Positions 2,781 to 36,914 of a stretch of 37,763 nucleotides of DNA are shown here, piece by piece (position 1 is the stretch's first letter; every line of letters starts with the position of its first letter). The stretch covers positions 16,616-54,378 of the forward strand of contig PAXN01000004.1 in the NCBI GenBank assembly GCA_002715005.1. The letters run 5' to 3'. The translations under genes were made by a program, and so were the position numbers. Source of the DNA: Rhodospirillaceae bacterium (GTDB taxonomy: Bacteria; Pseudomonadota; Alphaproteobacteria; UBA8366). The notes under the pieces were generated by a model. That model was not told where the DNA came from. It made no database searches and worked only from the letters and a program-made list of their open reading frames with translations.

Positions 2781-3915
2781 GTGCGAGCGGAAATACAAAA
2801 TATTGTTGAAGAGTTTGAGCAGTCATTAGAACTGCTGAGGAGGCATCTTTGACCTTCATACGGCAGAAAAGAAACTTGAGAAACTGAATGAACAATCTGA
2901 GGATCCCAAGCTGTGGGACGATCCGACAAGGGCGCAAACTGTAATGCGGGCGCGGACCCGTTTGGAGGATGCGATATCCGGCTATCGCGCTCTCGAACAA
3001 GGTCTTGCCGATAACGTTGAACTCATTGAGTTAGCAGAAGCGGAAGGCGACGACGGGGTCATCGCTGAAGCAGAGTTAGCTCTATGCGAGCTGAAATCAC
3101 AAGCAGCAAAACAACAGCTTGAGAGCCTTTTATCAGGTGAAGCTGATGCTAATGATTGCTTTCTTGAAGCGCACGCTGGGGCAGGCGGCACTGAGTCCCA
3201 AGATTGGGCTGAGATGTTGGTGCGCATGTATGTGCGTTGGGCCGATCAACACAGTTATAAAGTAGAGCAAATAGAAGAAAGCCCTGGTGAAGAGGCAGGA
3301 ATAAAGTCGGTCACGCTCAAGATTAGCGGCATTAATGCTTATGGTTGGCTTAAGACCGAGAGCGGAGTGCATCGTCTCGTGAGGATTTCTCCATATGACT
3401 CAGCGTCAAGACGCCATACCAGCTTCGCGTCGGTCGGCGTATATCCAGTGATAGATGATGCGATTGAGGTCGAGATAAACGATGGAGAACTTAGGGTCGA
3501 TACTTACAGGGCGTCCGGTGCTGGCGGACAGCACGTAAATCGGACCGATAGCGCCGTGCGAATTACCCATGAACCAACTGGTATTGTCGTTCAATGTCAA
3601 AATGACAGGTCGCAACATAGAAATCGTGCAACAGCGCTGACGATGCTGAAAGCGCGCCTTTATGAACTTGAGTTGAAGAAGCGTGAGGATAAAGCGGCTG
3701 CGGAGCATGCTGCTAAGACGGATATTGGTTGGGGTCACCAAATTCGATCGTATGTTTTACATCCGTATAAAATGGTTAAGGACCTTCGCACCAACGTAGA
3801 AAATAGTAATGCAGAAGGTGTTCTGGATGGAAATTTGGATGAATTTCTTGAGGCGGCTTTAGCCGAACGGGCAATAGGTAAAGGGAGGCTCGTTGCGGAT
3901 CCTGGAAATGACTAG
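2781..3915 (+). CDS. prfB: Peptide chain release factor 2, with programmed +1 frameshift
   Basis: RF2 recognises UGA and UAA stop codons and triggers peptidyl-tRNA hydrolysis. Translation starts at GTG 2781 (AGAGGG just upstream) and reads 23 codons ([14 protein letters not shown]... to RRHL). It meets TGA at 2850-2852, shifts +1 and continues with [15 protein letters not shown] to the stop at 3913, giving about 377 residues, the normal RF2 length. Without the shift the N-terminal helical domain would be lost. The peptidyl-transferase motif GGQ is in [16 protein letters not shown]. The stop-recognition tripeptide reads SPY (in [12 protein letters not shown]) where the E. coli protein has SPF. 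The gene follows mrcA after about 200 bases. Confidence 0.96.
2838..2853 (+). promoter_or_regulatory. RF2 autoregulatory +1 frameshift site
   Basis: AGGAGG-CAT-CTT-TGA-C: an internal Shine-Dalgarno-like AGGAGG three bases before the slippery CTT, then in-frame TGA followed by C. This matches the geometry of the known RF2 site. When RF2 is scarce the ribosome pauses at TGA, shifts +1 on CTT-T and makes more RF2. The reading frame after TGA continues with conserved RF2 sequence. Confidence 0.95.
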
Positions 3916-15789: not shown

Positions 15790-16899
15790 ATGATATATCT
15801 CGACTGCAACGCATCTGCACCAATATCCGATCAAGTGATGGAGGCAGTCGTTCACGCAATGCGTACAACGGGCAACCCATCCTCAGTCCATGCGGATGGG
15901 CGTGCTGCAAGGGCGCTCGTTGAAGACGCGCGTGGCGCCGTCGCACAAATGGTAGATGCTACAGCGCAGAATGTAATTTTTACTAGTGGTGCGACGGAGG
16001 CAAACAATCTGGCGATAAGTGGCTCTGGGCGCAAGCGTGTTGTCGTCTCGCCAGTTGAGCACCCATCTGTACTACAAGCTCAATCCGAGACGGAAATGCT
16101 TACGGTAGACGAAAACGGCATTGTCGAACCAGAATCACTCGAAGCCTTGATGGGACACAGTGATGAGTCCGCTATTGTGTCTGTAATGCTCGCAAATAAT
16201 GAGACTGGTGTTGTCCAGCCTATCGCGGACCTCGCGGATATTGCCCATAGATACGGGGCGTTTTTTCATTGTGATGCGGTACAAGCGCCCGGCCGTTTGT
16301 CATTTTCTATGGCATCTTTGGGAGTCGATATGTTGACACTTTCCGCTCACAAAATCGGTGGTCCCAGAGGTGCGGGAGCGTTGATCCTCGCACCTGCAGT
16401 TGAAGTTAATGGGATGATAAAGGGTGGCGGACAAGAACGTCGTCGTCGTAGCGGTACGGAAAATGTTGGCGCTATCGTCGGCTTTGGTGAGGCTGCAAAG
16501 AGAATCTCGAAAACACTTGATGGCGCTGCTCATCTTCGGTCTTTACGAGATGAGTTGGAACAACGCGTATTAGCAACTGTACCCGACGCAATAATTTATG
16601 GTGCTAGGGTAAATCGTTTACCAAATACTAGTAATATTGGCGTAGTAGGAGTATCTGCGGAGACCCAGGTAATTGCAATGGATATGGCCGGTATCGCCAT
16701 CAGCGCGGGCTCGGCTTGTTCGTCGGGTAAAGTGGCATCTAGCCACGTCTTGAAGGCAATGGGCTTATCGGAAGTCGCCGCACAATCTGCTATTCGTGTC
16801 AGCTTATGTCCGGAAACGACTAAAAGCGACATTGACCATTTTCTTAATGTATGGCTCTCCCATATACAGGTTGTAAGGGACCGGACAAACGCGGCGTAA
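15790..16899 (+). CDS. Cysteine desulfurase (NifS/IscS-like, first copy)
   Basis: PLP enzyme that takes sulfur from cysteine. The 369-residue protein carries TSGATEANNLA (65-75), the PLP-binding lysine Lys188 (SAHKIGGP), GGGQERRRRSGTENV (212-226) and the persulfide cysteine Cys310 in SAGSACSSGK. This is the IscS-like paralogue that in alphaproteobacteria commonly precedes the main iscS. The downstream iscS copy follows after 5 bases. Role inferred: sulfur donor for Fe-S clusters or tRNA thiolation (mnmA lies nearby). Confidence 0.92.
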   Translation: MIYLDCNASAPISDQVMEAVVHAMRTTGNPSSVHADGRAARALVEDARGAVAQMVDATAQNVIFTSGATEANNLAISGSGRKRVVVSPVEHPSVLQAQSETEMLTVDENGIVEPESLEALMGHSDESAIVSVMLANNETGVVQPIADLADIAHRYGAFFHCDAVQAPGRLSFSMASLGVDMLTLSAHKIGGPRGAGALILAPAVEVNGMIKGGGQERRRRSGTENVGAIVGFGEAAKRISKTLDGAAHLRSLRDELEQRVLATVPDAIIYGARVNRLPNTSNIGVVGVSAETQVIAMDMAGIAISAGSACSSGKVASSHVLKAMGLSEVAAQSAIRVSLCPETTKSDIDHFLNVWLSHIQVVRDRTNAA

Positions 16900-16904
16900 G
16901 GATA

Positions 16905-18080
16905 ATGGCTGAAGATTCGGTATATCTTGACTATCAGGCTTCCACCCCGCTCGACCCAAGGGTACGGGAATCTATGCTCGTGTGGTTTGGTGAGAAGTTC
17001 GGTAACCCGCATTCGAATGACCATGTGTATGGATGGGCTGCCGAGGAAGCAGTTGAAACCGCGCGTACGCAAGTCGCATCACTAATTGGCGCTAAGCCAC
17101 GGGAAATTATTTTCACATCCGGCGCAACCGAATCTAATAATATTGCCGTCAAAGGCGTTGCGCGTGCGCTTCGGGGAAAGCGTGATCACGTTGTAACGAT
17201 TGTCACCGAGCATAAATGTGTGCTCGAGAGCTGCCAGCGGCTGGAACGAGAAGGGACGCAAGTGACCTATTTGCCAGTCGAGCGGAATGGCTTGCTTGAT
17301 CTTAATCGTCTGGAGGATACGCTCGATGAGCAGACGGCTTTGGTATCAATCATGGCTGCCAACAATGAAATCGGTGTTATTCAACCGATGGTTGACATTG
17401 CCGCGCTTTGCAAAAAAGTCGGCGCACGACTGCATTCGGATGCGGCGCAGGCTGTTGCAAAAATCCCTATCAATGTGAATGAAATAGGCTTGGATCTGCT
17501 GAGCATAAGTAGCCATAAGATATATGGGCCTATGGGTATCGGCGCACTCTATATGCGGCAGAAACCAAAAGTCCCGATTGAACCTTTGATGGACGGCGGT
17601 GGGCAGGAACGCGGCCTGAGGTCAGGCACTGTTCCAGTACCTCTTGCAGTTGGGTTTGGCGCTTGTTGTTCTATTGCAGCGGATGAGATGACTGGTGAGG
17701 CTAAACGGATTCTTGGCCTACGCACACGCTTTCTGGATCGTATAAAGAGAGCTATAAATGATATTCACCTTCACGGTGATTTGGAGCAGCGCATACCGGG
17801 TAACCTAAATCTTTCTTTTGCCAACATTGATGCTCAAGATTTAATGATGCGTTTATCCCGCGTCTCGGTTTCGACCGGATCAGCGTGTTCAACAGCCACG
17901 GTTCAGGCATCGCATGTTTTGCAGTCACTCGGCATTGAACAACATCTGTTGCATAATGCTATACGTATTGGGTTTGGCCGGTTTACGACGGAAGCTGAAG
18001 TAGATTTTGCGGTTGATGAGATGGCTCGTGCGGTGATGTCACTTCGTAAATCTGCGCAAGTATACGAGCGTGTGGATTGA
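16905..18080 (+). CDS. iscS: Cysteine desulfurase IscS
   Basis: The main group I cysteine desulfurase. ATG 16905 is chosen over an in-frame start at 16851 because AAGGA lies just upstream and the protein then starts with the usual YLDYQASTPLDPRV. PLP lysine is Lys205 (SSHKIYGP), with GGGQERGLRSGT (231-242); the persulfide cysteine is Cys328 (STGSACSTATVQASHVL). At 391 residues it is a little short. It ends LRKSAQVYERVD and lacks the extended C-terminal tail that E. coli IscS uses to dock the scaffold IscU. The stop codon overlaps the ferredoxin ATG by one base (TGATG). Confidence 0.93.
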   Translation: MAEDSVYLDYQASTPLDPRVRESMLVWFGEKFGNPHSNDHVYGWAAEEAVETARTQVASLIGAKPREIIFTSGATESNNIAVKGVARALRGKRDHVVTIVTEHKCVLESCQRLEREGTQVTYLPVERNGLLDLNRLEDTLDEQTALVSIMAANNEIGVIQPMVDIAALCKKVGARLHSDAAQAVAKIPINVNEIGLDLLSISSHKIYGPMGIGALYMRQKPKVPIEPLMDGGGQERGLRSGTVPVPLAVGFGACCSIAADEMTGEAKRILGLRTRFLDRIKRAINDIHLHGDLEQRIPGNLNLSFANIDAQDLMMRLSRVSVSTGSACSTATVQASHVLQSLGIEQHLLHNAIRIGFGRFTTEAEVDFAVDEMARAVMSLRKSAQVYERVD

Positions 18081-21314: not shown

Positions 21315-21764
21315 ATGCTTCGGAAAGGCGGATATAGCGCTACGGACAATGCGATGACGGAGATCGCGCTGGCATTGGCTATGGGGTTTTTTGCGATAAT
21401 GGTGCTTGCCATAGTGTCGATGGGTGCCGGCGCAACAACGCCAAACGGGGCCGAGGAGATACCTAACAAGAAGCGAATTATGACTTCCGCCTTGGCATCT
21501 GCCTCTTCGCCCGATGCGATGGGTACGACAACAGTTTCCTCCAAAGATAGGCTCGTCATCTTCTATGACGGACGCTTTTACGACGATACTCTCAAGAAAA
21601 TTCTCCCTGAAAACTTAGGTCGGGGCGGTCGGGTCATCTTAGCCGTCCCGCCCACTCTTTCCATGTCGGAATCGCTCGGTGCTCGGGCGGAAGTAAGTAC
21701 AAGGGACCTCATCGTGACTACACTTGATCGTGCGTGGATGAAACGGCTGAAGGATTTGCGATAA
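21315..21764 (+). CDS. Small inner-membrane protein with MotB/TolR-like N-terminal helix
   Basis: 149 residues. The N-terminus DNAMTEIALALAMGFFAIMV (12-31) is a single membrane helix preceded by an aspartate in the pattern D-x-x-M-T. In MotB and its relatives this pattern (DFMT) carries the proton-binding Asp of a stator channel. A linker of about 30 residues follows, then a periplasmic domain (about 78-149: RLVIFYDGRFYDD and GGRVILAVPPTLS) reminiscent of ExbD/TolR in size and strand pattern. The family call is inference from this pattern; no known member is named. GAGGAG precedes the ATG. It starts the cluster and overlaps the next gene as TAATG. A MotA/TolQ-like partner lies at 28237. Confidence 0.6.
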   Translation: MLRKGGYSATDNAMTEIALALAMGFFAIMVLAIVSMGAGATTPNGAEEIPNKKRIMTSALASASSPDAMGTTTVSSKDRLVIFYDGRFYDDTLKKILPENLGRGGRVILAVPPTLSMSESLGARAEVSTRDLIVTTLDRAWMKRLKDLR

Positions 21765-22597
21765 TGATGAAGATAATTGTGCGTAGACTTACTGCGGTTT
21801 TCACTCTTGCGGTGGTGCTGGCTTGTTTTGGAGCGGTCCGTGATGCCACGGCGGAACGATCCGAAATGGGACCCAAGAAAATTCAACGGTTAGTCGCAAC
21901 GATAGCGGCGAGAAACGGCACCGTGCCACCGGCGCTAGCTCTCGCTGTTGCACAGGTGGAATCGAATTTTCGTGCCGATGCTAAAAGCCCTGTGGGTGCG
22001 CAAGGCGTGATGCAAATAATGCCTGCGACAGCAAAAGGGGTTTTCAATATTTCTGCTGACCATCTGCGAGATCCAAAAATAAACGTCCGCATTGGCGTTT
22101 CCTATTTGGAACGTCTTTATAGACAGTATGGCGGCCGTTGGGATTTGGCCCTTTCTCATTATAACGGCGGATCGCTGAAGCGCCAAAACGGTCGGTACGT
22201 TGCACATAGCTACACGCGAGGCTACGTGGCGAAGGTAATGCGTTACTGGCGCCAATTTCAACGGACATCAACGGCTATTTATCTTGCGCGCGTTGATCAA
22301 AAGGCACCTACTATCCGTTTCCTACCTACTGGTGGCAAGATGACAACGCAGCAGGCAAGGGCCATCAGCAATGGTTGGTGGGAGAGGAAACTTAGTTGGC
22401 GTCAATATTTAAATATTGCTGATCGGTTATTGAGTCGCGAGCTAACGAAAAGTCCGACTAGCCGGGTTCTAAAACCGCAGATGCGAGAGGTGGTTGGGAC
22501 CCAAAGCAAAGAGGTGCTGCATAACGACGCGCCTCTACGTTTTCACTCCGAAAGCTCTTTACCCGGTGATTTGTATAAAACTCCGCGATTTATGTAA
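21764..22597 (+). CDS. Secreted lytic transglycosylase (SLT family)
   Basis: Cuts peptidoglycan glycan strands, probably making room for an envelope complex. ATG 21764 overlaps the previous stop. The 277-residue protein has a signal peptide (1-30, ending DATA) and a lysozyme-like domain with catalytic Glu66 (AQVESNF), GAQGVMQIMPATA (78-90), INVRIGVSYLERLY (106-119) and LALSHYNGG (128-136). The C-terminal 110 residues are unlike known SLT extensions. Translational coupling to the MotB/TolR-like gene argues that both act together. Confidence 0.88.
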   Translation: MMKIIVRRLTAVFTLAVVLACFGAVRDATAERSEMGPKKIQRLVATIAARNGTVPPALALAVAQVESNFRADAKSPVGAQGVMQIMPATAKGVFNISADHLRDPKINVRIGVSYLERLYRQYGGRWDLALSHYNGGSLKRQNGRYVAHSYTRGYVAKVMRYWRQFQRTSTAIYLARVDQKAPTIRFLPTGGKMTTQQARAISNGWWERKLSWRQYLNIADRLLSRELTKSPTSRVLKPQMREVVGTQSKEVLHNDAPLRFHSESSLPGDLYKTPRFM

Positions 22598-22669: not shown

Positions 22670-24184
22670 ATGAAGACTGAACTGTTTAAAGCACAGCAAA
22701 GTGATGCGTTGAGAGATGTATTTTCGTATTTGGCCGAGTCCTGTGAATTGGATAGCTCGGGTTACGGGGAACCAAGACGCAAATACGGTCCACGAACACT
22801 GCGATTTCTCTCCGCCGCAATTGTCTGTCGCTCCTATGATAAGATACTATACCGGCTATGCCATCTTACGCGTGCAGTAATGCTTGCCGATCGTCAGGGG
22901 CAGTACGATAAATTTTTTTTCGGGGACCGCAGTCCGGGCCGCGTTGACGGTGCAGCAGGATTTTTTCTCGACTATCAATCTGATACGAATAGAAAATCCG
23001 GTTTGCTCAGGGCTAATCCCGACGGAATTGTGATTGACTATGACGCTTCCGCGAAATCTGCGTTCGAAATTAGCTATAAACAAATACCACTCCTTGCGGC
23101 GATGCTCGAATTTCTCGTCTCCACTGTTGATTATGGTGAAATACACGAAATTTTTACTGGGTTAGATGAAGACAAAGTAACGCAAAAAGAGATCAGCGAA
23201 AGGAGCAAGCGATTATCAAAGGCGCTCTACGCTTATTTGGCAAAGCACCTAACGCCCGCCCAAAAACAGACAAAGTTTCAAAATATTTACAGGTACCTTG
23301 AAGGTAACTTGGGGTCATCTTTCGAGGAAGGAATGATCGACGATCAGTGCATAATCGATTTTTGGCTGAAAGAGTCGGTTGCGGGATCTACAAATATGTC
23401 TGACTTCAAGCAGTTCCGTACCGTATTTCTGGCATTTCTCCGATTTGTAGATCTTATGCGCGATGCAGAGGACCTAAGCTGTTTTGAGAACACACTTCCA
23501 TTCGGTACTGACCGCGATGCTGGTGAGTGGGAACCGGCCATGGAAGACGAATCCTATATGGCAACGAAGGTGGCGGACACCCAAGAGGATCCCCTGGACT
23601 TGCTTGCAATTGAACCGGCAAATGCGATTAAGTTTCTTAATGATACAGAAGCCAAATTGATAAAACTGCCAATTGAAGAAAAATTTGCCGGACGGTTTAT
23701 TCATTCCTACATGCGGTCCGAAATTTTCGGTCAGGCGCAGAACCGATTGACGCAGGTCTTGCGCTCCAATGCCAATGATTTGGGCCCATTGCTGAATAAC
23801 CCGACTTCTGAATCCTATAGCCAACGCATTGAGAAATTACGGCAGCTTGATAAGCATCTCGCTGATCTGTTGCTTGCGATTGCATTTGTTTTGCAGCGTG
23901 ACTGCCCGCGTGCTGAACAGGTTATCGTAAAGAGCTTAGATTTTAAAACGTTGTCCCAGGGCAAGCAGGTACTCGAAAAACTCAGTCGCAAAGGGTTCGA
24001 TGCTGCCAAGCGAGGTGATCCAGAGGCAACGGTCGCATTCGAGGTGGCATCCTCCCCATTAAGTGTAATTCGGGAGCGACTTAAGTCTTTGTTGCAAAGA
24101 TTTGCAGATGACGATTTTTGGCAGGGCATATTCGAGGCGGATCAGGAAGTTTTTATCGAACAATTCAAGCGTTTGTATGGGTGA
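22670..24184 (+). CDS. Conserved-looking cytoplasmic protein of unknown function, 504 residues
   Basis: No family recognised. No signal peptide or membrane helix, so probably cytoplasmic. Predominantly helical and charged, with an acidic middle (about 280-315, rich in Asp and Glu) that may separate two helical halves. ATG follows AGGG at good spacing. It lies 72 bases after the transglycosylase gene and 6 bases before the next gene, so it belongs to the cluster. A soluble regulator or cytoplasmic base of the proposed envelope complex would fit, as inference only. Confidence 0.8.
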   Translation: MKTELFKAQQSDALRDVFSYLAESCELDSSGYGEPRRKYGPRTLRFLSAAIVCRSYDKILYRLCHLTRAVMLADRQGQYDKFFFGDRSPGRVDGAAGFFLDYQSDTNRKSGLLRANPDGIVIDYDASAKSAFEISYKQIPLLAAMLEFLVSTVDYGEIHEIFTGLDEDKVTQKEISERSKRLSKALYAYLAKHLTPAQKQTKFQNIYRYLEGNLGSSFEEGMIDDQCIIDFWLKESVAGSTNMSDFKQFRTVFLAFLRFVDLMRDAEDLSCFENTLPFGTDRDAGEWEPAMEDESYMATKVADTQEDPLDLLAIEPANAIKFLNDTEAKLIKLPIEEKFAGRFIHSYMRSEIFGQAQNRLTQVLRSNANDLGPLLNNPTSESYSQRIEKLRQLDKHLADLLLAIAFVLQRDCPRAEQVIVKSLDFKTLSQGKQVLEKLSRKGFDAAKRGDPEATVAFEVASSPLSVIRERLKSLLQRFADDDFWQGIFEADQEVFIEQFKRLYG

Positions 24185-24190
24185 TTTGGT

Positions 24191-24754
24191 ATGAGTATAA
24201 CATGGAATAAAATCTCTAAAGAGCGTAAAGAGCGCATGGAACTAGCTTTCGAGCAGTTACACCTTGTTGACCTTATGGTCGACCAGCAATTAAATGCAAT
24301 CGACGCTGCAGATGAGCGTCCTGTTGGGTTTCAGGACCTCTATTCGGCCGCGGTTCAGCCCGAGGTGGCGATAAATGGCCGTATTGCAGATGCACTTGAG
24401 AATAATCCAAAATTGCGGCGGGATTTTGAGACGTTGCTGCAACAGACCGGCATTGCATGGTTTCCTGTTGCGGCCGCTGCCGAGACGGCAACGCTCGACG
24501 AGCGTGATGAAGCGTCTTTCCTCATTCGTATCCGTCCTTCGAAGGCAAATGAGGATCAGGTTTATGTTTTGGTTCGCCTGAAGGAACCGTCGGCAGTACA
24601 GCCACATGCTATTATTGCCTTGCCGCCAGAGGGTGTTCCGATAAAGAAAACTTTGCCGGTAGCGGTAGATAGCATGTTTCAATTATTGATGCAGCGGGAT
24701 GAACCTCTGGTGCGTGCGATACAAGACCGCAGATCAAAGCTGTCGCTCCAATAG
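24191..24754 (+). CDS. Unknown cytoplasmic protein, 187 residues
   Basis: No family recognised with confidence. Residues 55-85 (PEVAINGRIADALENNPKLR...FETLLQQ) resemble the helical segment seen at the start of anti-sigma-factor-like proteins, but no zinc ligands are present. The second half is a mixed sheet region (ASFLIRIRPSK, QVYVLVRLKEP). No signal peptide or membrane helix. It starts 6 bases after its neighbour and is followed after 23 bases by the Lon-like membrane protein, so all three were probably co-transcribed. Confidence 0.75.
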   Translation: MSITWNKISKERKERMELAFEQLHLVDLMVDQQLNAIDAADERPVGFQDLYSAAVQPEVAINGRIADALENNPKLRRDFETLLQQTGIAWFPVAAAAETATLDERDEASFLIRIRPSKANEDQVYVLVRLKEPSAVQPHAIIALPPEGVPIKKTLPVAVDSMFQLLMQRDEPLVRAIQDRRSKLSLQ

Positions 24755-24777: not shown

Positions 24778-26151
24778 ATGACTGCGGTTCGTGTCCATAT
24801 TCTGACTACGGAAGGCCCGGCTACGGTCCAAGGGTTGGTGGTAGAGAGCTATGATAATGATGTGTTGGCGACGATCTGTCTTGATGGCACGACCGAACAA
24901 TTACCGATTTGCCGCGATTACCACATGTTCGTCGATCAGTTCATTCGTCCGCTTACCGGCGAACGGCGTTATCGGATGGATATCGATAATCGGATCGATG
25001 GAGGAAAAAGTTGGCACCTTGGCGTTTTGATTGCGCATTTACTCGCCGAGGATGGAAGGTTAGCGACCGATGGGCAGTCGTCGGTATATGCACTATTTGT
25101 GACCGGTCGTATTCGGAGGCAGCCCAGTGTTGATGAGCGCGTTTACGAGGTATTGCCTGTTGACGGCATCGCGGAAAAAATCGCAGCGTCGAGGGCTCAT
25201 ATAGAAGCCGAACAGGAGGCTGGCCGCAAAGTAGTGGTCCTTTTGCCTACTGGGAATATGAGTGCGGAATCCGATCGGCTAAAGGCTTTGCTACCCTCTG
25301 GGAACAATGATGAAGAACTCATTTTTGTTTCTGATGCGGATGAAGCATTGAGGGCATTAGAGCTGTCGCCTCTAAAAAGCGACCCTTCGTTACCGCCGGC
25401 ATCCACTCGTATGGATAAGGGGTCGTGGTTTCGTTACCTCCTGCAGCCAGCCGTTTTGGCAATGATCACGGTTCTTTTCATCGTTGGTTTGGCCGCTGGG
25501 TGCTATGCTGCTTGGCAACATTACAGTTCTGATTGGCAACGCTTATGGGATAAAGGTCGTTACGTATCGTTAACACAATCATTGGCATCCTCGCCGGTTC
25601 CGGTGTTGGCAGGTTTGTTCCGTTGGCAAGTAAGAGGGCAAAGTGGGCGCGGTGGCCTGCCGTTCGTACTAAGTGCAATGCGGCCGGCAGATGGCGGCTC
25701 TTGCGTCGGCCGTCGTTTTCGCGGTGGTGGTTTAGTTTCAAAGAAATTTAGTAGCAGTTCGGATGGGGAGCTTATCGCAGAAAACCCCGGGTCGCTGTGC
25801 GGTCTCGCTTTCCTTGTGACGAACAAGACTGCGGCGAGTTTGAATGTTCGCTTCGCAGCGGCCAGAAATATAATTCGAAAGGGACGTTCGGGTGACGTAT
25901 GGCAGACCGCCGTACTTGCGCCTGGGAAAGTGATGGCCGTGGATATTCCATTGTCGCTCTACGGCCAGGATAATGAGGCTTGGCGTATCATTATTGTTGG
26001 ATCGCCAGTGCCTTCTGAAGATTTAGATAAATTGGTACGGGCGGAGATTAGAAATTCGAAATCCCCCGCGGGATCGAGTGTATCTATCCCAGAAGACCTT
26101 TGGTCGCTCGGTCTCGCCTTCACCGAAGCTATGGTTCGAATTCGCCGTTAG
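24778..26151 (+). CDS. Membrane protein with cytoplasmic Lon-protease-like (S16) domain
   Basis: 457 residues. Residues 1-195 follow the order of a Lon proteolytic domain: DGGKSWHLGVLIAHLL (74-89) takes the place of DGPSAG, YALFVTGRI (104-112) of the VTGEI strand, VLPVDGIAEKIAAS (125-138) of the LP-GG-KEK helix, VVVLLPTGN (152-160) and LIFVSDADEAL (181-191). The catalytic pair would be Ser78 and Lys134. One membrane helix at about 220-243 follows, then a periplasmic domain (to 457) with a sheet pattern loosely like DUF4384. No ATPase domain is present. Whether it cleaves anything or only uses the fold is unknown. It is the most unusual protein of the cluster. Confidence 0.75.
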   Translation: MTAVRVHILTTEGPATVQGLVVESYDNDVLATICLDGTTEQLPICRDYHMFVDQFIRPLTGERRYRMDIDNRIDGGKSWHLGVLIAHLLAEDGRLATDGQSSVYALFVTGRIRRQPSVDERVYEVLPVDGIAEKIAASRAHIEAEQEAGRKVVVLLPTGNMSAESDRLKALLPSGNNDEELIFVSDADEALRALELSPLKSDPSLPPASTRMDKGSWFRYLLQPAVLAMITVLFIVGLAAGCYAAWQHYSSDWQRLWDKGRYVSLTQSLASSPVPVLAGLFRWQVRGQSGRGGLPFVLSAMRPADGGSCVGRRFRGGGLVSKKFSSSSDGELIAENPGSLCGLAFLVTNKTAASLNVRFAAARNIIRKGRSGDVWQTAVLAPGKVMAVDIPLSLYGQDNEAWRIIIVGSPVPSEDLDKLVRAEIRNSKSPAGSSVSIPEDLWSLGLAFTEAMVRIRR

Positions 26152-26259: not shown

Positions 26260-26844
26260 ATGAAGGTTAATGGAATTGTAAGCGGAGCGGCCAGGTGCTT
26301 GGTACTTCGAGTGGTTGGGGCGGCAGGATTAATGTTTGCGCTTGCCGCATGTCAGACAGGCGGTGGTAGCGGGTTTGCAGAGGAAGGCATTGGATACAGA
26401 GAAGCCCGGTTCGCTGAGATTACCGCGCTTCGGGGTTATCGTTCCTGTGCCGAGGAGGCACAGGCGCTTGATGTTAAAGCGCGTGAGACACGCTCGCCTG
26501 CCCGTTATCTCGCAAGCGCTCGACTGATCGAGCGTTGTGAAACGGAACTTGGAATGGGCGGCGCGGGCCTCGCACCCGAAGAGCGGATGCGAAATTACGC
26601 CTTGGCAGTTCATAATTATGTCCGCGGCGGCGATCTCAAAAGAGCTCGTGAAACTTTCGAGCGGTTTCAGACGGCATTCCCAAAGCAAGACCTTTATTAC
26701 ACCGATGGTTCGTCTTTCGTCGACACTACGCGGGCCCTACTTGGCCAAGCTAACGATCAGGAAATGGCGCGTTTTTCGATGCTTAATATAAGCAGTGCGT
26801 TGAAGGCGGAAATGAACCGTATTTCTCATTGGACAAACAATTGA
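26260..26844 (+). CDS. Lipoprotein, helical-repeat-like
   Basis: 194 residues from ATG 26260, preceded by CGGAG. The signal peptide ends in a lipobox, ALAAC, with Cys31 as the lipidated residue. The mature part is helical (ALRGYRSCAEEAQAL, YLASARLIERCETELG, YALAVHNYVRGGDLKRARET), resembling TPR-type repeats, so it may be a scaffold at the outer membrane. Longer in-frame starts upstream (26164) are rejected because they bury the signal peptide. It belongs to the cluster, 35 bases before the next gene. Confidence 0.82.
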   Translation: MKVNGIVSGAARCLVLRVVGAAGLMFALAACQTGGGSGFAEEGIGYREARFAEITALRGYRSCAEEAQALDVKARETRSPARYLASARLIERCETELGMGGAGLAPEERMRNYALAVHNYVRGGDLKRARETFERFQTAFPKQDLYYTDGSSFVDTTRALLGQANDQEMARFSMLNISSALKAEMNRISHWTNN

Positions 26845-26879
26845 TGGCGGCGGCCAAGCGCCGAAAAGGAGCAAAAACT

Positions 26880-27785
26880 ATGACCAATATATTGAGCCCC
26901 GCTTCTCTAACCAGAAGCAATTCCTACCGGACGATATTGGCCGGTGGGTTGGCGTTAGCTTTACTGTCTGTACCTATGACAGGACATGCGGGTGGCAAGG
27001 CTAGCTGGAGTCCGCAGGCCAGCGAACGCCTAGTCCGGCTGCCGTCTACTTATATTCAGCGATCGGTCGACCGCGACTTTGCTGGATCGAATCTAGCCGC
27101 TGCGATTGGTGATCAAGCCAAACAGATTGCTTCTAAAGAACAGAGTATTCGAGACCTGATGGCGGCTGTCCCGATGTCGGAAGGGAAGGTGCGTACGGAA
27201 TTGCAACACCAAGTCCTCGTCGAAAAGCGGGCTCTAGTGCAGCTCATGGGCGAGCGGATTGAATTGCAGCGACGGGCGACGAAGACCCGAATTGATCTTT
27301 ATAATAGCCTTCTGTCACGAGTGGTGAGCCAAGGCGATCTGGAAATGCCGAATGAAGCCGCATTAAGCCAGGCTCAGGATAATGCTCGAAAACGCCTTGC
27401 CCGCATAGCTACTAAGGTTGATACGACGATCTTTGGAAGCCAAGCGCGTCAAAGTAAATACGCAAAGGAATCTGCCAAATACGAGATGGCAATCCAAAAG
27501 CTGGCCCAAAAGATTAACAAGCATCCCATGAACCGGCTACCCAATATCGACGGTGAAAAAGTAGACCGTAAAACATATTTGCGACGCCTGATACAGGATC
27601 AGGAAACAGAATTTGCCTTCTATACCCAACAAGAAGAGGTGCTGGGTTACATGGGTAAGCTCGTAGCGCTCGATGCGATGGCGCTCAATGAGAAAATCGA
27701 ACAAGCCGATACGGGACCAGGTGGCGGTGGGGTAAAACCGCCATCCAACGTGGTCGCCGAAGCGGTCAAGCTATTCTTGGATTGA
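26880..27785 (+). CDS. Secreted coiled-coil protein
   Basis: 301 residues from ATG 26880, which has AAAAGGAG upstream; an earlier in-frame start is rejected because it lacks a ribosome site. A signal peptide of about 37 residues ends near MTGHAGG. The mature protein is almost entirely helical, with long charged coiled-coil-like stretches (AKQIASKEQSIRDL, LVEKRALVQLMGERIELQRR) and a Gly/Pro tail (TGPGGGGVKPP) before a last helix. No family recognised. A periplasmic rod or scaffold is a reasonable inference. Confidence 0.8.
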   Translation: MTNILSPASLTRSNSYRTILAGGLALALLSVPMTGHAGGKASWSPQASERLVRLPSTYIQRSVDRDFAGSNLAAAIGDQAKQIASKEQSIRDLMAAVPMSEGKVRTELQHQVLVEKRALVQLMGERIELQRRATKTRIDLYNSLLSRVVSQGDLEMPNEAALSQAQDNARKRLARIATKVDTTIFGSQARQSKYAKESAKYEMAIQKLAQKINKHPMNRLPNIDGEKVDRKTYLRRLIQDQETEFAFYTQQEEVLGYMGKLVALDAMALNEKIEQADTGPGGGGVKPPSNVVAEAVKLFLD

Positions 27786-27838
27786 AACTTAAACGCCTGT
27801 CCTAACGAAGGGGCAAGCATATGAAAAAAGGAGTTATA

Positions 27839-28237
27839 ATGATGAATAAGACAACTTTAGCCAAGGCGGTCATCCTGGGGGGTGCGCTTTCGTTCCTTTC
27901 CATGATGGCCATGGCGGGACCATTGGAAAATTTAGAACGCGAACGTGCGCATTTAGTCCGCGTAATGATAGATCCGTCGCTAGTACCCGCGGAACGCCAA
28001 AGTCGATTGGAACAGGCAACGCGCCGGTTGGTCGATATGGAGCGAATGGTTATCCGCGATAAGGACCTTGCCAAGACAAGCTCACCGGCAGCGGGTAGTG
28101 CGCTCACAAATTACGATTTGACATTTCTTGCCCACGCTTCTGTAGAAAAAGGCGTATCGGTGACCGACCATTGGCTAAATGGTGTAGGACTATCCACGCC
28201 CGCCTTGATGAGCACGCGGATGGGGAGACGGTGGTGA
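27839..28237 (+). CDS. Small secreted protein of unknown function
   Basis: 132 residues from ATG 27839, placed after AAAAAAGGAG; the in-frame ATG at 27821 lies before that ribosome site and is rejected. The signal peptide ends at MAMA (about residue 26). Mature residues 28-78 form an amphipathic helical pair (LENLERERAHLVRVM, RLEQATRRLVDMERMV), similar in style to the preceding coiled-coil protein. The stop codon overlaps the next ATG (TGATG), so it is coupled to the MotA/TolQ-like gene. Confidence 0.75.
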   Translation: MMNKTTLAKAVILGGALSFLSMMAMAGPLENLERERAHLVRVMIDPSLVPAERQSRLEQATRRLVDMERMVIRDKDLAKTSSPAAGSALTNYDLTFLAHASVEKGVSVTDHWLNGVGLSTPALMSTRMGRRW

Positions 28238-28734
28238 TGCGCTCCCAAGTCATGCAAATGGTTGGTACGGTTTCGCGGTCGGCCAACTACGTGTTCGGGG
28301 GCGCAGTCATAGCCCTTGCCATCGCGGTAGCGATATCCGCTGTAGGGCCTATGGATGTTCTTAGCTGGCTTCACGGTACCGTCGGCATGGCGTTTATCCT
28401 GTTATTCTCTGTGTTGGCTATAGTGACAATTTTTTGCTGGACGAACATCCTGACTAGGTCCGTTCATACAGAATTTTGGCTCGAAGCCGGGTTGCACGCG
28501 GCATCCGGGATAGCCACCGCCGCGCTGACATTTACTTTGCTTGGAATTAGTTTGGGGATAGGTGTACTTGCTGAACAAACGCTTACGCCAGAATCCGTCC
28601 AGCCCATCATTTCAGATCTTACGCACCGGTTTAGTCTTGCGTTTTTTACAACAGTCATCGGGCTACCCGTTTCAGCCGCGCTGCGAGCATTGCTTCTTAT
28701 TACTTATGCCCAGAAACAACCTACGCAATCCTAA
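28237..28734 (+). CDS. MotA/TolQ/ExbB-like proton-channel membrane protein
   Basis: 165 residues from ATG 28237, chosen because it overlaps the upstream stop and starts right before the first helix. Four membrane helices at about 17-37, 48-71, 88-113 and 131-157. Helices 3 and 4 carry the signatures of the stator family: AALTFTLLGISLGIG (95-109), matching the TolQ/ExbB LLG-T-LGI turn, and FSLAFFTTVIGLPVSAALR (132-150), matching the A-x-x-TT-x-x-G-L-x-x-x-x-P pattern with conserved threonines facing the pore. It lacks the large cytoplasmic loop of TolQ and MotA. Family assignment is by motif reading; a structure prediction would settle it. Confidence 0.65.
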   Translation: MRSQVMQMVGTVSRSANYVFGGAVIALAIAVAISAVGPMDVLSWLHGTVGMAFILLFSVLAIVTIFCWTNILTRSVHTEFWLEAGLHAASGIATAALTFTLLGISLGIGVLAEQTLTPESVQPIISDLTHRFSLAFFTTVIGLPVSAALRALLLITYAQKQPTQS

Positions 28735-28757: not shown

Positions 28758-29273
28758 ATGAAATATATAGCCTTTAATATCATTGTGATTTTTTCGTTAG
28801 GGTACCTCTTCCTAGCTCCCTCTAGCATACCGACGGTAGGACAAACCGGTGGAGAAATGGCCTCGGTTGGACGCTCTGTACAGTCCAATGTACCTGTGTC
28901 GGCATCGACGGTGACGCCATCGCCGATGCCGCCAAAGGCTGCCCCCGATACGTCTGAAAACAAGTTATGGCAACCCGACAGCGGATCCTTGGGAAAAGAA
29001 AAAAAAGAGGCTTTAGCAAAAGGTACCCCTGAGACCGCGCGGCAGGATGAACCAGTTCGGCAAGACCCCGACATACCAGCACGGCCAAAGGCAAACCCTG
29101 AAAGTAGGCACGAGCAGAAACCTATGAATGACCCTGCTCCATCCAATGCAAATCGTAACGTAATAGCCGTTGCGAAGGGCGAACAGTTGATGCGGCCAAA
29201 CGTGCGTCGCAACGAACTCCACAAGCTTGCCGAAGAGATGGAGTTATTTTTTCTGAATCGAACAATACGGTAA
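28758..29273 (+). CDS. Membrane-anchored proline-rich linker protein
   Basis: 171 residues with one N-terminal membrane helix (MKYIAFNIIVIFSLGYLFLA) and then about 110 residues of Pro/Ala/Ser/Lys-rich, probably extended periplasmic chain. A short helical end follows (RRNELHKLAEEMELFFLNRT). This is the layout of TonB/TolA-type energy transducers, but no TonB motif is visible. GGAG precedes the ATG. It follows the proton-channel gene by 23 bases, where TolA/TonB-like genes often lie. Confidence 0.7.
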   Translation: MKYIAFNIIVIFSLGYLFLAPSSIPTVGQTGGEMASVGRSVQSNVPVSASTVTPSPMPPKAAPDTSENKLWQPDSGSLGKEKKEALAKGTPETARQDEPVRQDPDIPARPKANPESRHEQKPMNDPAPSNANRNVIAVAKGEQLMRPNVRRNELHKLAEEMELFFLNRTIR

Positions 29274-29284
29274 GGAGAGTGCTT

Positions 29285-30391
29285 ATGTTCAAAGGAGCCG
29301 GAACAGCCTATGCAGGCGCCATCCTAGGGTTGCTGTTGATAGCGACTACGGGAAAGCCCCAACAGAATGAGGTTAGTAATTCCTCGTCTGAAGAAACGCC
29401 TAGTGCGGCACCAACAAAGATGCCGGAGACCCGACAGATGAAACCGGTACAGGGGAAACCTGTCGCAATGGACAAAATCGTATTACCGCCTCCGCCGATA
29501 GCAAATCGGGAGCTGAAGTCTAGCAAGAAAATTCAGCGCCAGGTCAAGACAAGTAAGTTGAATGCTCTACAGCGGCCGGCGATGCCGACGTCGAGTGCAG
29601 TTGTTCAAGAGATAGAACCTTTGAAAATTAAACCTATGCCGAGCACCGTAGCTCATGCTCATCGCACAATTCAGCCGCTAAAGGAAATAGCGCCGAAGCC
29701 GGTAGCGAAGGATGGTAGTGCGTCTGTCAAACACAACGCTTTGAACAACCTGGAGTTGACAGACTACCGTAAAAAGCGCGTTGCCCAGGAGTCATCAAAA
29801 GAAGAACGGGCTATCAGTAATATCGTTGAACCGATTGAAAATGGCGCCGCAGAACGTAGCGATATTAATGGAAGGGCGCTTGTCCGGATGCTGGAACATG
29901 GTTCTGGGCCGAATATTCGCCTTGCTTGGCCGGATGGGCGGCGTAACCGTGAAGTTCTATTTCAGATGCTCACTACCTGCTTTGGTATGAAGACGGGTGT
30001 GATGGATAGTAATGGTTCAGTTTTCAACGAGGGTACGGCACCTGGTACACCCTGGCCTATAGACCTGGATAAATATAGCGGGTTTTTGCGCCATGCTGAC
30101 GGAGTACTCGCGCCGAGCGAGGCGAAATTAGTATATCGTATAGTGGGGCGCCATCGTCTCTCACCACAAAGCAAGGTGGTGAGAATTTTCCCTCGGGCCT
30201 TTGATGCTTCACTTCTAGCGGGAATTAGCAGAATTGCTAGTCGCAACCTTAAAGAGGGATCAAATGTCAGAGCACGCTACGAAATGATGGGTGGTAGTCT
30301 CAATGTGTCCCAAGTTGTGGTGAACGAAAAGTCGAAGTCAGGGAAAATAAAGTTCTCCACGCACTCAAAACCTTGCTCAATATCTGGATAG
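29285..30391 (+). CDS. N-anchored linker protein with unknown periplasmic C-terminal domain
   Basis: 368 residues from ATG 29285, seven bases after AAGGAG; a GTG at 29279 is too close to it. A weak N-terminal hydrophobic helix (about 5-22) is followed by some 170 residues of Pro/Lys-rich linker (VLPPPPIANRELK, EPLKIKPMPS, KEIAPKPVAK). A globular C-terminal domain (about 193-368) contains two cysteines (232 and 364) that could form a disulfide. The plan, anchor-linker-globule, is that of TolA or TonB, but the globular domain is not one I recognise. Confidence 0.75.
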   Translation: MFKGAGTAYAGAILGLLLIATTGKPQQNEVSNSSSEETPSAAPTKMPETRQMKPVQGKPVAMDKIVLPPPPIANRELKSSKKIQRQVKTSKLNALQRPAMPTSSAVVQEIEPLKIKPMPSTVAHAHRTIQPLKEIAPKPVAKDGSASVKHNALNNLELTDYRKKRVAQESSKEERAISNIVEPIENGAAERSDINGRALVRMLEHGSGPNIRLAWPDGRRNREVLFQMLTTCFGMKTGVMDSNGSVFNEGTAPGTPWPIDLDKYSGFLRHADGVLAPSEAKLVYRIVGRHRLSPQSKVVRIFPRAFDASLLAGISRIASRNLKEGSNVRARYEMMGGSLNVSQVVVNEKSKSGKIKFSTHSKPCSISG

Positions 30392-30396
30392 GAAAA

Positions 30397-31116
30397 ATGG
30401 GTTCGAATTCAACGATAACGGCTATCGTGATATGTTTTGGTCTCATAGTCGGCGCCTGCTCCACGCAGCACACAGGCTATAAAAATGAAAAAACGCCGGA
30501 GGACCTATTCCAGCGTCGCATCGAGTCTGAAATTAAGGATGCATTCTATCGGCAGCCACCGAATTGCGTGACGGTGCTTCCCGTCGAGGATTCGGGTGGT
30601 AAGAAGTTTGGCGACCCGCTCATTGAAAATGCAATAGCTAGGCATGCACGCGATCGGTTCGATCGAGTGATAGGGCATGCCGAACGTGAGCACTTGGTAA
30701 GGCGGCTTGGCTTTGATCTTAATAATTCTATTGATCGTCAGAGGTACGCCGATAAAAGTAAGTGCGGCAATTTCCTCGAATTCGTTCCTTGGGGTGGTCG
30801 GTCGGCATATTTGGTAGTTTGGAGCCGCCGTGCTTTCGGTATCGAAGCGCGGTTGATAGATCCTGCGAGAAAGACGATCCTCTGGCGTGCGCGCCATGAG
30901 GCGAAGCGAAGTGCAGGAGGATTAGCGATATCCCCACTTGGCGCTGTAATGCAGGTAGTAGACACAACTGCTCAGCAGAGTGATAATGATATAATGGCAT
31001 CTTTGGCGGATGATGTGGCAAGACGCTTGATGACAAGTCTGCCAGACCTTCGGTCATCCAGGATGGCGATACCTGGTATTTCTTCGGCTAATTTTGGCTT
31101 GCCGCATACAAAATAA
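30397..31116 (+). CDS. Lipoprotein, GNA1162/DUF799-like
   Basis: 239 residues from ATG 30397, preceded by AGGAAAA, 5 bases after the previous stop. Lipobox LIVGAC with lipidated Cys21. The mature protein has the alternating sheet-helix pattern of CsgG/GNA1162-type periplasmic domains: VTVLPVEDSGGKKFGDPLIENA, then YLVVWSRRAFGIEARLIDP and TILWRARHEAKRSAGG, then LADDVARRLMTSLPD. These lipoproteins act as outer-membrane accessory parts in several envelope machines. The family placement is tentative. Confidence 0.7.
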   Translation: MGSNSTITAIVICFGLIVGACSTQHTGYKNEKTPEDLFQRRIESEIKDAFYRQPPNCVTVLPVEDSGGKKFGDPLIENAIARHARDRFDRVIGHAEREHLVRRLGFDLNNSIDRQRYADKSKCGNFLEFVPWGGRSAYLVVWSRRAFGIEARLIDPARKTILWRARHEAKRSAGGLAISPLGAVMQVVDTTAQQSDNDIMASLADDVARRLMTSLPDLRSSRMAIPGISSANFGLPHTK

Positions 31117-31131
31117 TGGGGGCAGACTTCA

Positions 31132-31677
31132 ATGATCAGCAGGCTTATTTTATCTTTACCTGCCTTTATGGTTGTTGGTTTTATAGCGGTGGCGGCGCAC
31201 GCAACCGAAATCATTGGTCGCGACATACTAATCGGCAAACTTTATCCTATCACGGGTGAACCGATAAAGACGGTCCATTTCGCAATCCCCTTCGTCTTCG
31301 ACTCTGCAAGGTTGGAGCCTGCTGCATACAAACAGCTAGATGAATTGGGCGCTGCGCTAGCGTCCGAGAAGATGGCGGGACTGGTTATCGGGGTCTATGG
31401 CCACACGGATGCGTTTGGTCCGTCAGCCCACAATGCTAAACTCTCTTTGGCGCGCGCGAAGAGCGTTGTCAGTTATATGGTTGGGCGGTTTAAGTTGATA
31501 GAAAACGAGATTACACTTGCTGGCTTTGGCGAAAGCAAGCCGCTCGACCCTGCAGACCCCTATGCGGCGATCAATCGTCGTGTGGAGGTGACAGTGCGGT
31601 TGCCAGGGGCAAAATCCCCAAAGCCGGATAATGAAGCTAAGCCAAGTCTTGACGGATCATTTATTATCAATAAATGA
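31132..31677 (+). CDS. OmpA-family peptidoglycan-binding protein (Pal/MotB C-terminal type)
   Basis: 181 residues with a cleavable signal peptide (to about residue 24, AAHA). The OmpA-like domain (about 46-157) has FVFDSARLEPAAYKQLDEL, VIGVYGHTDAFG with the diaminopimelate-binding Asp93, LSLARAKSVVSYM with the matching arginine, ITLAGFGESKPL and AAINRRVEVTV. It lacks a lipobox, so it is soluble in the periplasm or held by partners. It should anchor the cluster's complex to the cell wall. The stop overlaps the next ATG (ATGA). Confidence 0.9.
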   Translation: MISRLILSLPAFMVVGFIAVAAHATEIIGRDILIGKLYPITGEPIKTVHFAIPFVFDSARLEPAAYKQLDELGAALASEKMAGLVIGVYGHTDAFGPSAHNAKLSLARAKSVVSYMVGRFKLIENEITLAGFGESKPLDPADPYAAINRRVEVTVRLPGAKSPKPDNEAKPSLDGSFIINK

Positions 31678-33449
31678 GTTTGTATCATCAGAATGAAAGC
31701 AACCTGAACAAGCGTCTGAGATTACTTTCGATGAAACGGTCGAAACCTTGTCTGAGAACACCAATCTGCGGAATTTCATTTATGCACTTGCGCGGTTCTA
31801 TCCCTCTATTTGTGGCAGTCGCGTTTTTGGCTGGAATTATCCCAATGTCCGCTTGGGCATTTTGGGGGAACGAAAAATCCCAAGATAAAGCGTGTTCTGA
31901 GAGCCCAGCGCTTTGTTTGGCGATCGATTTGCTGCGCAATGTAGAAAAGGGAAATCGAGTGGCACTTCGTCCCTTAATACCGCGCGAAACGGGATTGCCT
32001 GCTGCGATTAGTAGACGGTTATATGAGGATATCTTGCAAGCTCTATCCAAGGTGTCGAAGGGCAGACAGGAAATTATCGCGCGCTCTCGTCTCGGCAAGA
32101 TTTGGGATAGTTGGGAAAATCAATATGAAACGGATATACAACGATTCATTAAGGAAACGCGCGCCGATGTAGAGATAATCTGCGAAAGAACCGCAAGACC
32201 GGAAGCGGTCGGTCTATCCTGCACCTCAACCGCGCTTTCGAGCGGAAAGCATGTCGGCGAAGGCCGCGCTGTCTTCCCGCAAAAGGATATTTTCACACCG
32301 GAAATATTGGATATTGCGGTTACTGCATTGGCAAAAAATTTACTGGTGGATCTGGAAGCTGCTAAGCCTGCTAAATTGGGTGTGCTTTTAGATATGAACT
32401 CTGGGTCCTCTAGTGAACTCGCCAATTTTCTTGGGAAACGACTACTGGCTGCGCTTAATCCAATGCTCATTGCCGAACAAAGGACCAAGAGAAAACAAAA
32501 GGAATTGAACCAGGCGGTGAAGGGCGATAGTTCAATTCTTGTTTCGTCGGGAGGCGAATTTACGCTCAATTGTGAAATTTTGCCGGAGAAAAACCGTGTG
32601 ACATTGGACGCCAGGCTATCGGATGGCGCCCGCCGAATATCCTATCGGTCTGTTACGATCGATCCCAAAAGTATTCCTGCTAGATATCTTAGCTCCCCGG
32701 GAGGTTTGGCAAAACAATATGTCGCGACGGGCGTGGCAATTATCTCCAAAAAATTAGACCGGCAAAGCGCAATTCGCGCCGCCCGTAACCTTGCGCGCGC
32801 GCGCGTTGTGGCGCAAGCGTTGGCAATCCAAGCGCCGGCCATTCGGGAGGTTCGAACTGAAGCGCATGGCATGCGAGTTTTACAAGGAACTCTAGACAAG
32901 GGGGTGCCGTTGCACGAGCAATTTCGCCGTCTTGATGACGGCGGCGCCAACCGACTGACTTATGAGCTTCGGGCTACGGTGAAGTATGTGGGAAGCAAGG
33001 CGCATCCGAATATTTCCGCTCACCTCAACAAAAAAGTCTATCGTGCTGGGCTCGACCCTATTTCGATCAGGCTCAGTGCTAAAACCGCAGCACGAATTGC
33101 CGTTTTTGGATGGGGCGCTGATAATAAAGTAATCCGCCTATATCCTAATAGGCTTGATCCCGACTTATTTTTGCCTGCGGGAGGCGTTTTGGCGTTGCCA
33201 AGGAAGGACGAAGCAAGAATTTTGTCTGCGCCGATGCCGGGTAATAATAATCAACAGGATCATGAAGCCTTGATCCTTGTGGCGGCCAATGGAGTGGTAC
33301 CATTTTCAAAGATCGTGCCGCTGGCCGGGATAAGCGTTGGTGGAACCATGGATGTGGCAATTGGTATTGGTACGTTTTTCGAGAGGCTTGCGGAGTACGA
33401 TTTAGCACAAATGACGATCCGAATTTTACCCTACCAGGTGGTCGATTAG
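31674..33449 (+). CDS. Secreted protein with DUF4384-like C-terminal domain
   Basis: 591 residues from the coupled ATG 31674. A classical signal peptide begins only at Met37 (MHLRGSIPLFVAVAFLAGII), so translation may really start at 31782. Residues about 95-330 look like a CsgG/FlgO-type periplasmic fold (LPAAISRRLYEDILQALSKV, EIIARSRLGKIWDSW, ADVEIICERTA). A helical segment at 362-390 (RAARNLARARVVAQALAI) is LPP20/FlgT-like. The DUF4384-like part spans about 455-560 (VYRAGLDPISIRLSAKT, IAVFGWGADNKVIRLYPN, LPAGGVLALP). It is the last gene of the cluster. Domain names other than DUF4384 are tentative. Confidence 0.75.
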   Translation: MSLYHQNESNLNKRLRLLSMKRSKPCLRTPICGISFMHLRGSIPLFVAVAFLAGIIPMSAWAFWGNEKSQDKACSESPALCLAIDLLRNVEKGNRVALRPLIPRETGLPAAISRRLYEDILQALSKVSKGRQEIIARSRLGKIWDSWENQYETDIQRFIKETRADVEIICERTARPEAVGLSCTSTALSSGKHVGEGRAVFPQKDIFTPEILDIAVTALAKNLLVDLEAAKPAKLGVLLDMNSGSSSELANFLGKRLLAALNPMLIAEQRTKRKQKELNQAVKGDSSILVSSGGEFTLNCEILPEKNRVTLDARLSDGARRISYRSVTIDPKSIPARYLSSPGGLAKQYVATGVAIISKKLDRQSAIRAARNLARARVVAQALAIQAPAIREVRTEAHGMRVLQGTLDKGVPLHEQFRRLDDGGANRLTYELRATVKYVGSKAHPNISAHLNKKVYRAGLDPISIRLSAKTAARIAVFGWGADNKVIRLYPNRLDPDLFLPAGGVLALPRKDEARILSAPMPGNNNQQDHEALILVAANGVVPFSKIVPLAGISVGGTMDVAIGIGTFFERLAEYDLAQMTIRILPYQVVD

Positions 33450-34104: not shown

Positions 34105-34293
34105 TTAAAGGCACATCGCTTGGGCATCATATCCATTTTCTGAAATCGTCAGGACGGCGGTGTCACTGTTCGTTAAACGAACACAGAATTCATCATCTGA
34201 GGAGCGCCAAGATAAATATTTATCAAGATCTAAGGTCACGGTTTTCACAGATGTTGCTTCGTATAAAGCAGATATTATTTCCAACCGTTCCAA
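34105..34293 (-). CDS. Small open frame overlapping the end of the large secreted protein gene
   Basis: About 62 codons, only TTG starts (34293 or 34284), no ribosome site. It overlaps the upstream gene's last 19 bases in another frame. The peptide (KTVTLDLDKYLSWRSSDD, FCVRLTNSDTAVLTISENG) looks protein-like. It could be a coupled small gene, or the end of a formerly longer protein separated by a frameshift. Evidence is weak. Confidence 0.3.
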   Translation of the reverse strand: MERLEIISALYEATSVKTVTLDLDKYLSWRSSDDEFCVRLTNSDTAVLTISENGYDAQAMCL

Positions 34294-36428: not shown

Positions 36429-36914
36429 GTCTGAGCGACCTTCACTTGTTGCCGGGTCCTTGTTGTCTCTTAACAACTCGACGTAGAGATTGTTCAGACG
36501 GCTGCTCGTATTGATAAAAAACAACTTCCTAACAAGTTTATTACTAATCATTTGGCTGTCCATAAGTCAGGCATCGGTTAGGAACCATTGTAAATTAATA
36601 ATCCATTTGATTTCACCCGAGAATCCATTTCCCAAACAAAAAACTTAGCGACTACTAAAACCACTCTTTCGTGAAAGTATAAAGTCCCGTTATACAAATA
36701 AATGTAAATTAAGTTTATCCAATTAAAAATTGTTATTAAAAAATGGTAAAATAATTATAATATAATATAAATAAAAGTACCTTAGAATTATTTTTACCAT
36801 TATTTTGTACGTTATACCCCCAAACTTTACTAAACTCATTTCTATGAAAACCCGAGTATAACATTCTGCCAGATAATTATTTTGCTTCTTTGAGGCGCTT
36901 GCGCCAAGGAAAAA
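36429..36914. other. AT-rich gap upstream of the large secreted protein
   Basis: Very AT-rich, with no supported gene. It probably contains the promoter of the minus-strand gene. Apart from the palindrome listed next, only a small CTTTC-GT-GAAAG repeat near 36666 is seen. Confidence 0.5.

Follow-up and report, generated by a model that had tools for sequence, protein, structure and literature searches.

A Lon-type proteolytic domain without an AAA+ module, joined to a membrane helix and a predicted periplasmic domain in a recurrent operon of a Rhodospirillaceae bacterium

In a genomic stretch of 37,763 nucleotides from a Rhodospirillaceae bacterium (the window) we found a gene for a protein whose N-terminal half has the predicted fold of the Lon proteolytic domain (P-domain) and is followed by one transmembrane (TM) helix and a predicted periplasmic domain. 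This protein is probably an ATP-independent, membrane-tethered Ser-Lys peptidase and a subunit of a trans-envelope signalling complex encoded by the surrounding operon. An AAA+ motor normally delivers substrates to the Lon proteolytic domain. The Lon fold would be put to a new use in a family that has the catalytic dyad but no motor, an altered serine motif and an anchor in the inner membrane. The gene and its parts are the following.

24778..26151, plus strand: Lon-like gene, 457 aa, with Lon-like P-domain, one TM helix and periplasmic domain
24778..25365, plus strand: predicted cytoplasmic Lon-like proteolytic domain, residues 1-196 (VIA-align Z 14.2 to 2x36; Foldseek E 1.2e-5; hhalign against Lon E 9.3e-7)
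25009..25011, plus strand: codon of Ser78, putative catalytic serine in the motif GxSW, invariant in 41/41 domains and aligned to E. coli Lon S679
25102..25104, plus strand: codon of Thr109, aligned to Lon T704 (36 Thr, 5 Ser)
25177..25179, plus strand: codon of Lys134, putative catalytic lysine, invariant in 41/41 domains and aligned to Lon K722
25450..25506, plus strand: TM helix, residues 225-243 (hydropathy 2.35; AlphaFold2 helix 223-258)
25663..26004, plus strand: predicted periplasmic Ig/PapD-like beta-sandwich, residues 296-409 (AlphaFold2, Foldseek), with conserved Cys309 and Cys341

The reading frame starts with ATG at 24778 and ends with the stop codon at 26149-26151. It was intact in a sister genome at 98% identity, the two copies differing by 27 synonymous and 11 non-synonymous codon changes (dN 0.011, dS 0.085), and we therefore regard it as a real gene.

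Fold, architecture and topology

A sequence-only reading had recognised the elements of Lon in their Lon order, and all five were indeed present: DGGKS (residues 74-78), VTGRI (108-112), LPVDGIAEK (126-134), LLPTGN (155-160) and FVSDADEAL (182-190). The Lon-like fold that it proposed was borne out by structure prediction. An AlphaFold2 model built on an 11-sequence alignment had pLDDT values mostly between 75 and 94 over residues 1-190, and its residues 1-196 matched the P-domain of human Lon (LONP1, 2x36) with a VIA-align Z of 14.2 and an rmsd of 3.6 Å over 169 residues. RadA was matched at Z 14.3, and the 50 best VIA-align matches were Lon, LonC and RadA throughout. Foldseek matched the domain model to Lon P-domains at E 1.2e-5.

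Profile comparisons gave the same assignment. Alignment of the profile of 41 Lon-like domains to that of 11 Lon sequences (hhalign) covered residues 17-203 with E 9.3e-7 and a probability of 91%, and placed S78, T109 and K134 at the positions of S679, T704 and K722 of Lon (E. coli numbering). In a search of 385 genomes of the class the family profile picked up Lon proteases in many of them, over the region TGxx...VxxIxxK (E 2e-5 to 8e-4); these ORFs were of ~780-950 aa and the inspected examples were true Lon. Against the PDB the family profile reached Lon at E 0.0075, which is weak on its own. Searches of Pfam, NCBIfam, PADLOC and, with the single sequence, the PDB gave no match to the Lon-like protein, and neither did a tblastn search against plasmids. 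The pfam domain PF05362 (Lon_C) did not match the Lon-like ORF; it matched only RadA in the Rhodospirillaceae genome studied, and in relatives it matched other ORFs but never the Lon-like locus. As single-sequence searches of Pfam, NCBIfam and the PDB were empty, the Lon assignment rests on profiles and structure. By predicted fold and profile, residues 1-196 were confirmed as a Lon/RadA-type proteolytic domain.

The absence of an AAA+ module from the chain, also part of the earlier reading, was upheld: the P-domain starts at residue 1 and a Walker A motif is absent, nor did a scan of six window proteins, the Lon-like protein included, find one. That the chain crosses the membrane was likewise supported by three agreeing features, namely a sole TM helix (225-243), a positive-inside topology with three Lys/Arg flanking the helix on its N-side and one on its C-side, and an outer domain with conserved cysteines. 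Most of the 41 ORFs carrying the domain, some of them truncated, showed by a simple hydropathy rule a hydrophobic segment beyond it, and Lys/Arg were usually more numerous on the side facing the domain. Because of this excess the Lon-like domain is predicted to be cytoplasmic, and we infer the same topology in vivo.

Between the domain and the helix lies a long, variable linker (residues 201-222) with pLDDT under 50. The C-terminal half was modelled as an Ig/PapD-like beta-sandwich with similarity to a pilus chaperone (Foldseek E 6e-4). Its Cys309 and Cys341 were invariant in the 11-member alignment of the order-level family and probably form a disulfide, as expected for a periplasmic domain. 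Conservation was far lower in the periplasmic domain than in the Lon-like domain, which keeps the idea of a sensor generic. Pfam found no PDZ domain in the protein, and there is no N-terminal TM helix, helix 225-243 being the only one.

The putative active site and known Lon-type proteins

Conservation of the proposed Ser-Lys dyad was striking. Ser78 and Lys134, which the sequence-only reading had found in place, did not vary among the 41 distinct domains and aligned to the dyad of Lon; together with Trp79 and Gly110 they were the only fully invariant columns, and Thr109 was Thr in 36 domains and Ser in five. Four further homologs inspected by eye also kept both residues. The chance of both dyad positions falling among four invariant columns placed at random in ~196 is about 3 in 10,000, a rough figure because it treats the columns as independent, which they are not strictly. 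RadA of the studied genome (L045), read directly from its sequence, has neither the serine motif nor the lysine. The dyad is thus under strong selection, being invariant in 41 domains while RadA lacks both residues.

The serine motif itself differs from that of Lon. Across the family it reads GxSW instead of GPSAG, with Trp79 directly after Ser78 in all members. Lon has a small residue at this place, and the tryptophan could obstruct the normal substrate path. Columns 74 and 75, which correspond to the place of Lon Asp676 two to three residues ahead of the serine, vary in the family. Lon peptidases are moreover usually hexamers stabilised by their AAA+ rings, which counts against our main reading.

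We therefore kept a pseudo-protease in play, since an invariant Trp adjoins the serine, and consider it unlikely but the most serious of the alternatives. As in RadA, the retained Lon fold would then serve for binding or assembly, and Ser, Trp and Lys would line a pocket for a peptide or small ligand. It is consistent with this that RadA, with a Lon-like domain lacking the catalytic serine, was as close in fold as Lon, and that GxSW departs from GPSAG. Loss of catalysis, however, usually frees catalytic positions to vary, and here Ser78 and Lys134 are invariant and position 109 is confined to Thr or Ser, while the RadA of the same genome has lost the serine motif and the lysine. Given the invariant dyad and Thr/Ser109, we favour a putative protease over a pseudo-protease.

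Lon-type domains occur in several known architectures. With the Lon P-domain (MEROPS S16; LonA/LonB; 2x36, E. coli Lon 1rr9) the protein shares the fold, the motif order, the Ser and Lys, and the T-G before a strand. Unlike Lon it has neither an AAA+ module nor an N-terminal LON domain, is anchored in the membrane C-terminally of the domain, and carries GxSW in place of GPSAG; PF05362 does not detect it. LonC (MtaLonC, 4fwd; fold match Z 13.4) shares an S16 peptidase domain without ATPase activity, and its Lon-type domain cleaves unfolded proteins without ATP (PMC3391209). LonC is soluble and has a large N-terminal part without canonical AAA+ motifs, whereas our protein lacks such a part, begins with the P-domain and possesses a TM helix and a periplasmic domain.

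YlbL of Bacillus subtilis shares the Lon-type domain, one TM helix, the lack of AAA+ and a putative Ser-Lys dyad (PMC6051672). This membrane protein needs its putative catalytic residues in order to function, and it is an example of a Lon-type domain that is anchored in the membrane, lacks AAA+ and regulates a membrane process. Purified without its TM helix, YlbL was inactive in vitro (PMC6051672). Its TM helix is N-terminal, and it has a PDZ domain and a Lon domain thought to lie outside the cell (PMC6051672), in contrast to the N-terminal, predicted cytoplasmic domain and external beta-sandwich described here. The Lon-like domains of RadA/Sms and ComM also share the Lon fold without the function of an AAA+ protease (RadA Z 14.3), and RadA of the studied genome differs from our protein by its lack of the dyad. 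The Lon-like domain of ComM lacks the dyad as well, and RadA/Sms and ComM are soluble DNA helicases. Fold and dyad are already known; the combination of an N-terminal cytoplasmic P-domain with no AAA+, a TM helix, a beta-sandwich, GxSW and this operon was not found in the papers searched.

The operon and its distribution

The Lon-like gene lies within a compact module of genes in the same orientation, with two less constant neighbours at its end. The sequence-only reading had overlooked this conserved module.

21315..21764, plus strand: 149-aa small membrane protein, first gene of the module, conserved, with an invariant T-E before a hydrophobic stretch
21734..22597, plus strand: lytic transglycosylase (SLT; PF01464 E 3.1e-26)
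22670..24184, plus strand: 504-aa predicted cytoplasmic protein of no known family, upstream partner (14/16 loci)
24191..24754, plus strand: 187-aa predicted cytoplasmic protein, immediately upstream of the Lon-like gene (13/16 loci)
26260..26844, plus strand: lipoprotein with weak TPR similarity
26829..27785, plus strand: 318-aa exported helical protein, start uncertain
27821..28237, plus strand: 138-aa exported protein
28237..28734, plus strand: 165-aa membrane protein, possibly MotA/TolQ/ExbB-like (weak; ZorA E 0.08, MotA_ExbB E 0.081)
28758..29273, plus strand: 171-aa membrane-anchored protein
29279..30391, plus strand: 370-aa protein of TonB/TolA-like layout (by inspection, no family match)
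30373..31116, plus strand: 247-aa lipoprotein
31132..31677, plus strand: OmpA-family protein, less constant neighbour (PF00691 E 1e-17)
31674..33449, plus strand: 591-aa protein ending in DUF4384 (E 1.9e-8), less constant neighbour

Among 16 loci compared, the core of the operon (149-aa protein, transglycosylase, 504-aa, 187-aa and Lon-like proteins) recurred in 12-16. The second part (lipoprotein, 318-aa, 138-aa, MotA-like and 370-aa proteins, lipoprotein) was mostly recurrent, in 6-7 of the 16, with the 171-aa protein diverging faster than the others. Both parts were found together in relatives from other classes of the phylum. PDB profile searches with the 504-aa and 149-aa partners gave no match. 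The 187-aa partner was modelled with a pLDDT of 90 as a helical N-terminal and a beta C-terminal half, and a fold search with this model found nothing above Z 5.4 and no solved fold of weight.

The 165-aa protein carries the near-invariant motifs TLLGISLGIG (TLLGIxLGIG) and FMTTVVGLP, which resemble the core of MotA/TolQ/ExbB. Pfam MotA_ExbB matched three of 13 members, weakly and at best with E 0.081, PADLOC ZorA matched at E 0.08, and a PDB profile search gave no match to a channel of the MotA/TolQ/ExbB type. On its motifs it is possibly a minimal relative of these proteins, too diverged for Pfam. PDB profile matches to elastase at E 0.04 were taken as chance, and we do not claim a Zorya-like anti-phage defence, for which PADLOC support was no better than E 0.08. 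The 370-aa protein consists, by inspection, of an N-terminal TM segment, a Pro/Lys-rich linker and a C-terminal domain.

The distribution of the operon is patchy. Members of the Lon-like family occurred in 13/43 genomes of the order, in ~19/385 of the class (counting only matches other than Lon itself), in 14/398 of the phylum sample and in 6/98 genomes of one family of another class. Canonical Lon was present in nine of 10 genomes carrying the family, the sister genome included. We rejected the idea that the protein substitutes for Lon: Lon was not found in the studied genome (G000, ~94% complete) but was present in the sister genome and all other tested relatives, and with canonical Lon coexisting the family is no replacement for it. 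Second copies of the operon core were observed in genomes G427 and G321 (L075:7991-9910 and L080:9272-10840), so that paralogous systems coexist there.

In a relative from another class a single chain (L070:9624-12245) joins the Lon-like domain, a Ser/Thr kinase (PF00069, 3.8e-35), a TM helix and a periplasmic TonB_C domain (PF03544, 2.5e-18), and a gene with a marginal FHA match adjoins it. The operon of another relative encodes a kinase-PEGA-FGE-sulfatase protein, and a caspase-type peptidase (PF00656, 1.9e-13) is encoded near the operon at L054:2058-3461. These kinase, TonB_C, FHA-like and caspase-type fusions and neighbours point to envelope regulation rather than bulk protein degradation. 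Caspase-type peptidases (PF00656) and DUF4384 proteins were also seen to recur near the operon at several loci.

Proposed function and other features of the window

We suggest that the cytoplasmic half would act as an ATP-independent Ser-Lys peptidase of the Lon (S16) type. The periplasmic half, a beta-sandwich that is probably disulfide-bonded, would bind other envelope components and most likely sense the condition of the cell wall or outer membrane, thereby controlling how accessible or how active the cytoplasmic site is. This active site would act locally and selectively, making one or few limited cuts in a cytoplasmic partner. The 187-aa and 504-aa products of the two preceding genes are the first candidates for substrate or adaptor. 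The sequence-only reading had proposed signalling across the membrane; we infer the same, and this is strengthened by the L070 relative, where the same domain shares a chain with Ser/Thr kinase and TonB_C domains. In this way the bacterium may respond to the condition of its envelope with the cleavage of a cytoplasmic protein.

We considered two further alternatives. In the first, which we regard as improbable, the dyad would cut only its own chain and only once, for example beside the TM helix, so as to free the Lon-like domain or mature the complex. That no scanned operon partner supplies an ATPase or unfoldase would fit such self-processing, as would the long, variable and low-confidence linker, but this linker has no conserved cut-site motif and in the L070 relative a kinase domain stands in its place. 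Very improbable is an ATP-dependent protease in trans, in which the tethered P-domain would pair with an AAA+ protein (such as ClpA/X or FtsH) whose gene lies elsewhere. Lon P-domains of other proteins do receive their substrates from AAA+ rings, but the genes recurring around the 16 clustered loci included none recognised as AAA+, and LonC acts on unfolded substrates without ATP (PMC3391209).

Returning to the ATP-independent, membrane-tethered peptidase, the operon is alike in layout to the Tol-Pal, TonB-ExbBD and Zorya ZorAB motors, with a possible MotA/ExbB-like protein, a TonB/TolA-shaped protein, lipoproteins, OmpA and a muralytic enzyme, and with TonB_C in the L070 fusion as a further likeness, although its channel-like protein is only weakly similar (E 0.08). 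We know of no Lon-like peptidase in any of these three systems. A wider reading, which we put forward only tentatively, is an undescribed trans-envelope machine (channel/TonB-like transducer, transglycosylase, lipoproteins) with an ATP-independent Lon-type peptidase bearing a new GxSW signature as its cytoplasmic output, in some bacteria coupled within one chain to a Ser/Thr kinase, so that intracellular proteolysis or phosphorylation would report on the envelope state. A description of the family or operon was not found in the open-access literature searched, which is weak evidence of absence. The compact, recurrent operon, barely annotated by standard domain libraries, offers a handle on an apparently unstudied envelope system carried by Alphaproteobacteria and some other Pseudomonadota.

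Outside the operon, a 762-aa ORF on the minus strand (34275-36563) contains a charged, coiled-coil-like stretch and had a marginal Pfam match below cut-off. Programmed +1 frameshifting is the classical mechanism of prfB (release factor 2). Upstream of its ORF (2944-3915) we observed the corresponding site CTT TGA C at 2847-2852 behind AGGAGG, the short leader ORF ending in LELLRRHL*. Two adjacent, overlapping genes (15790-16899 and 16851-18080) both look on reading like NifS/IscS-like cysteine desulfurases, and the true start of the second likely lies inside the listed ORF.
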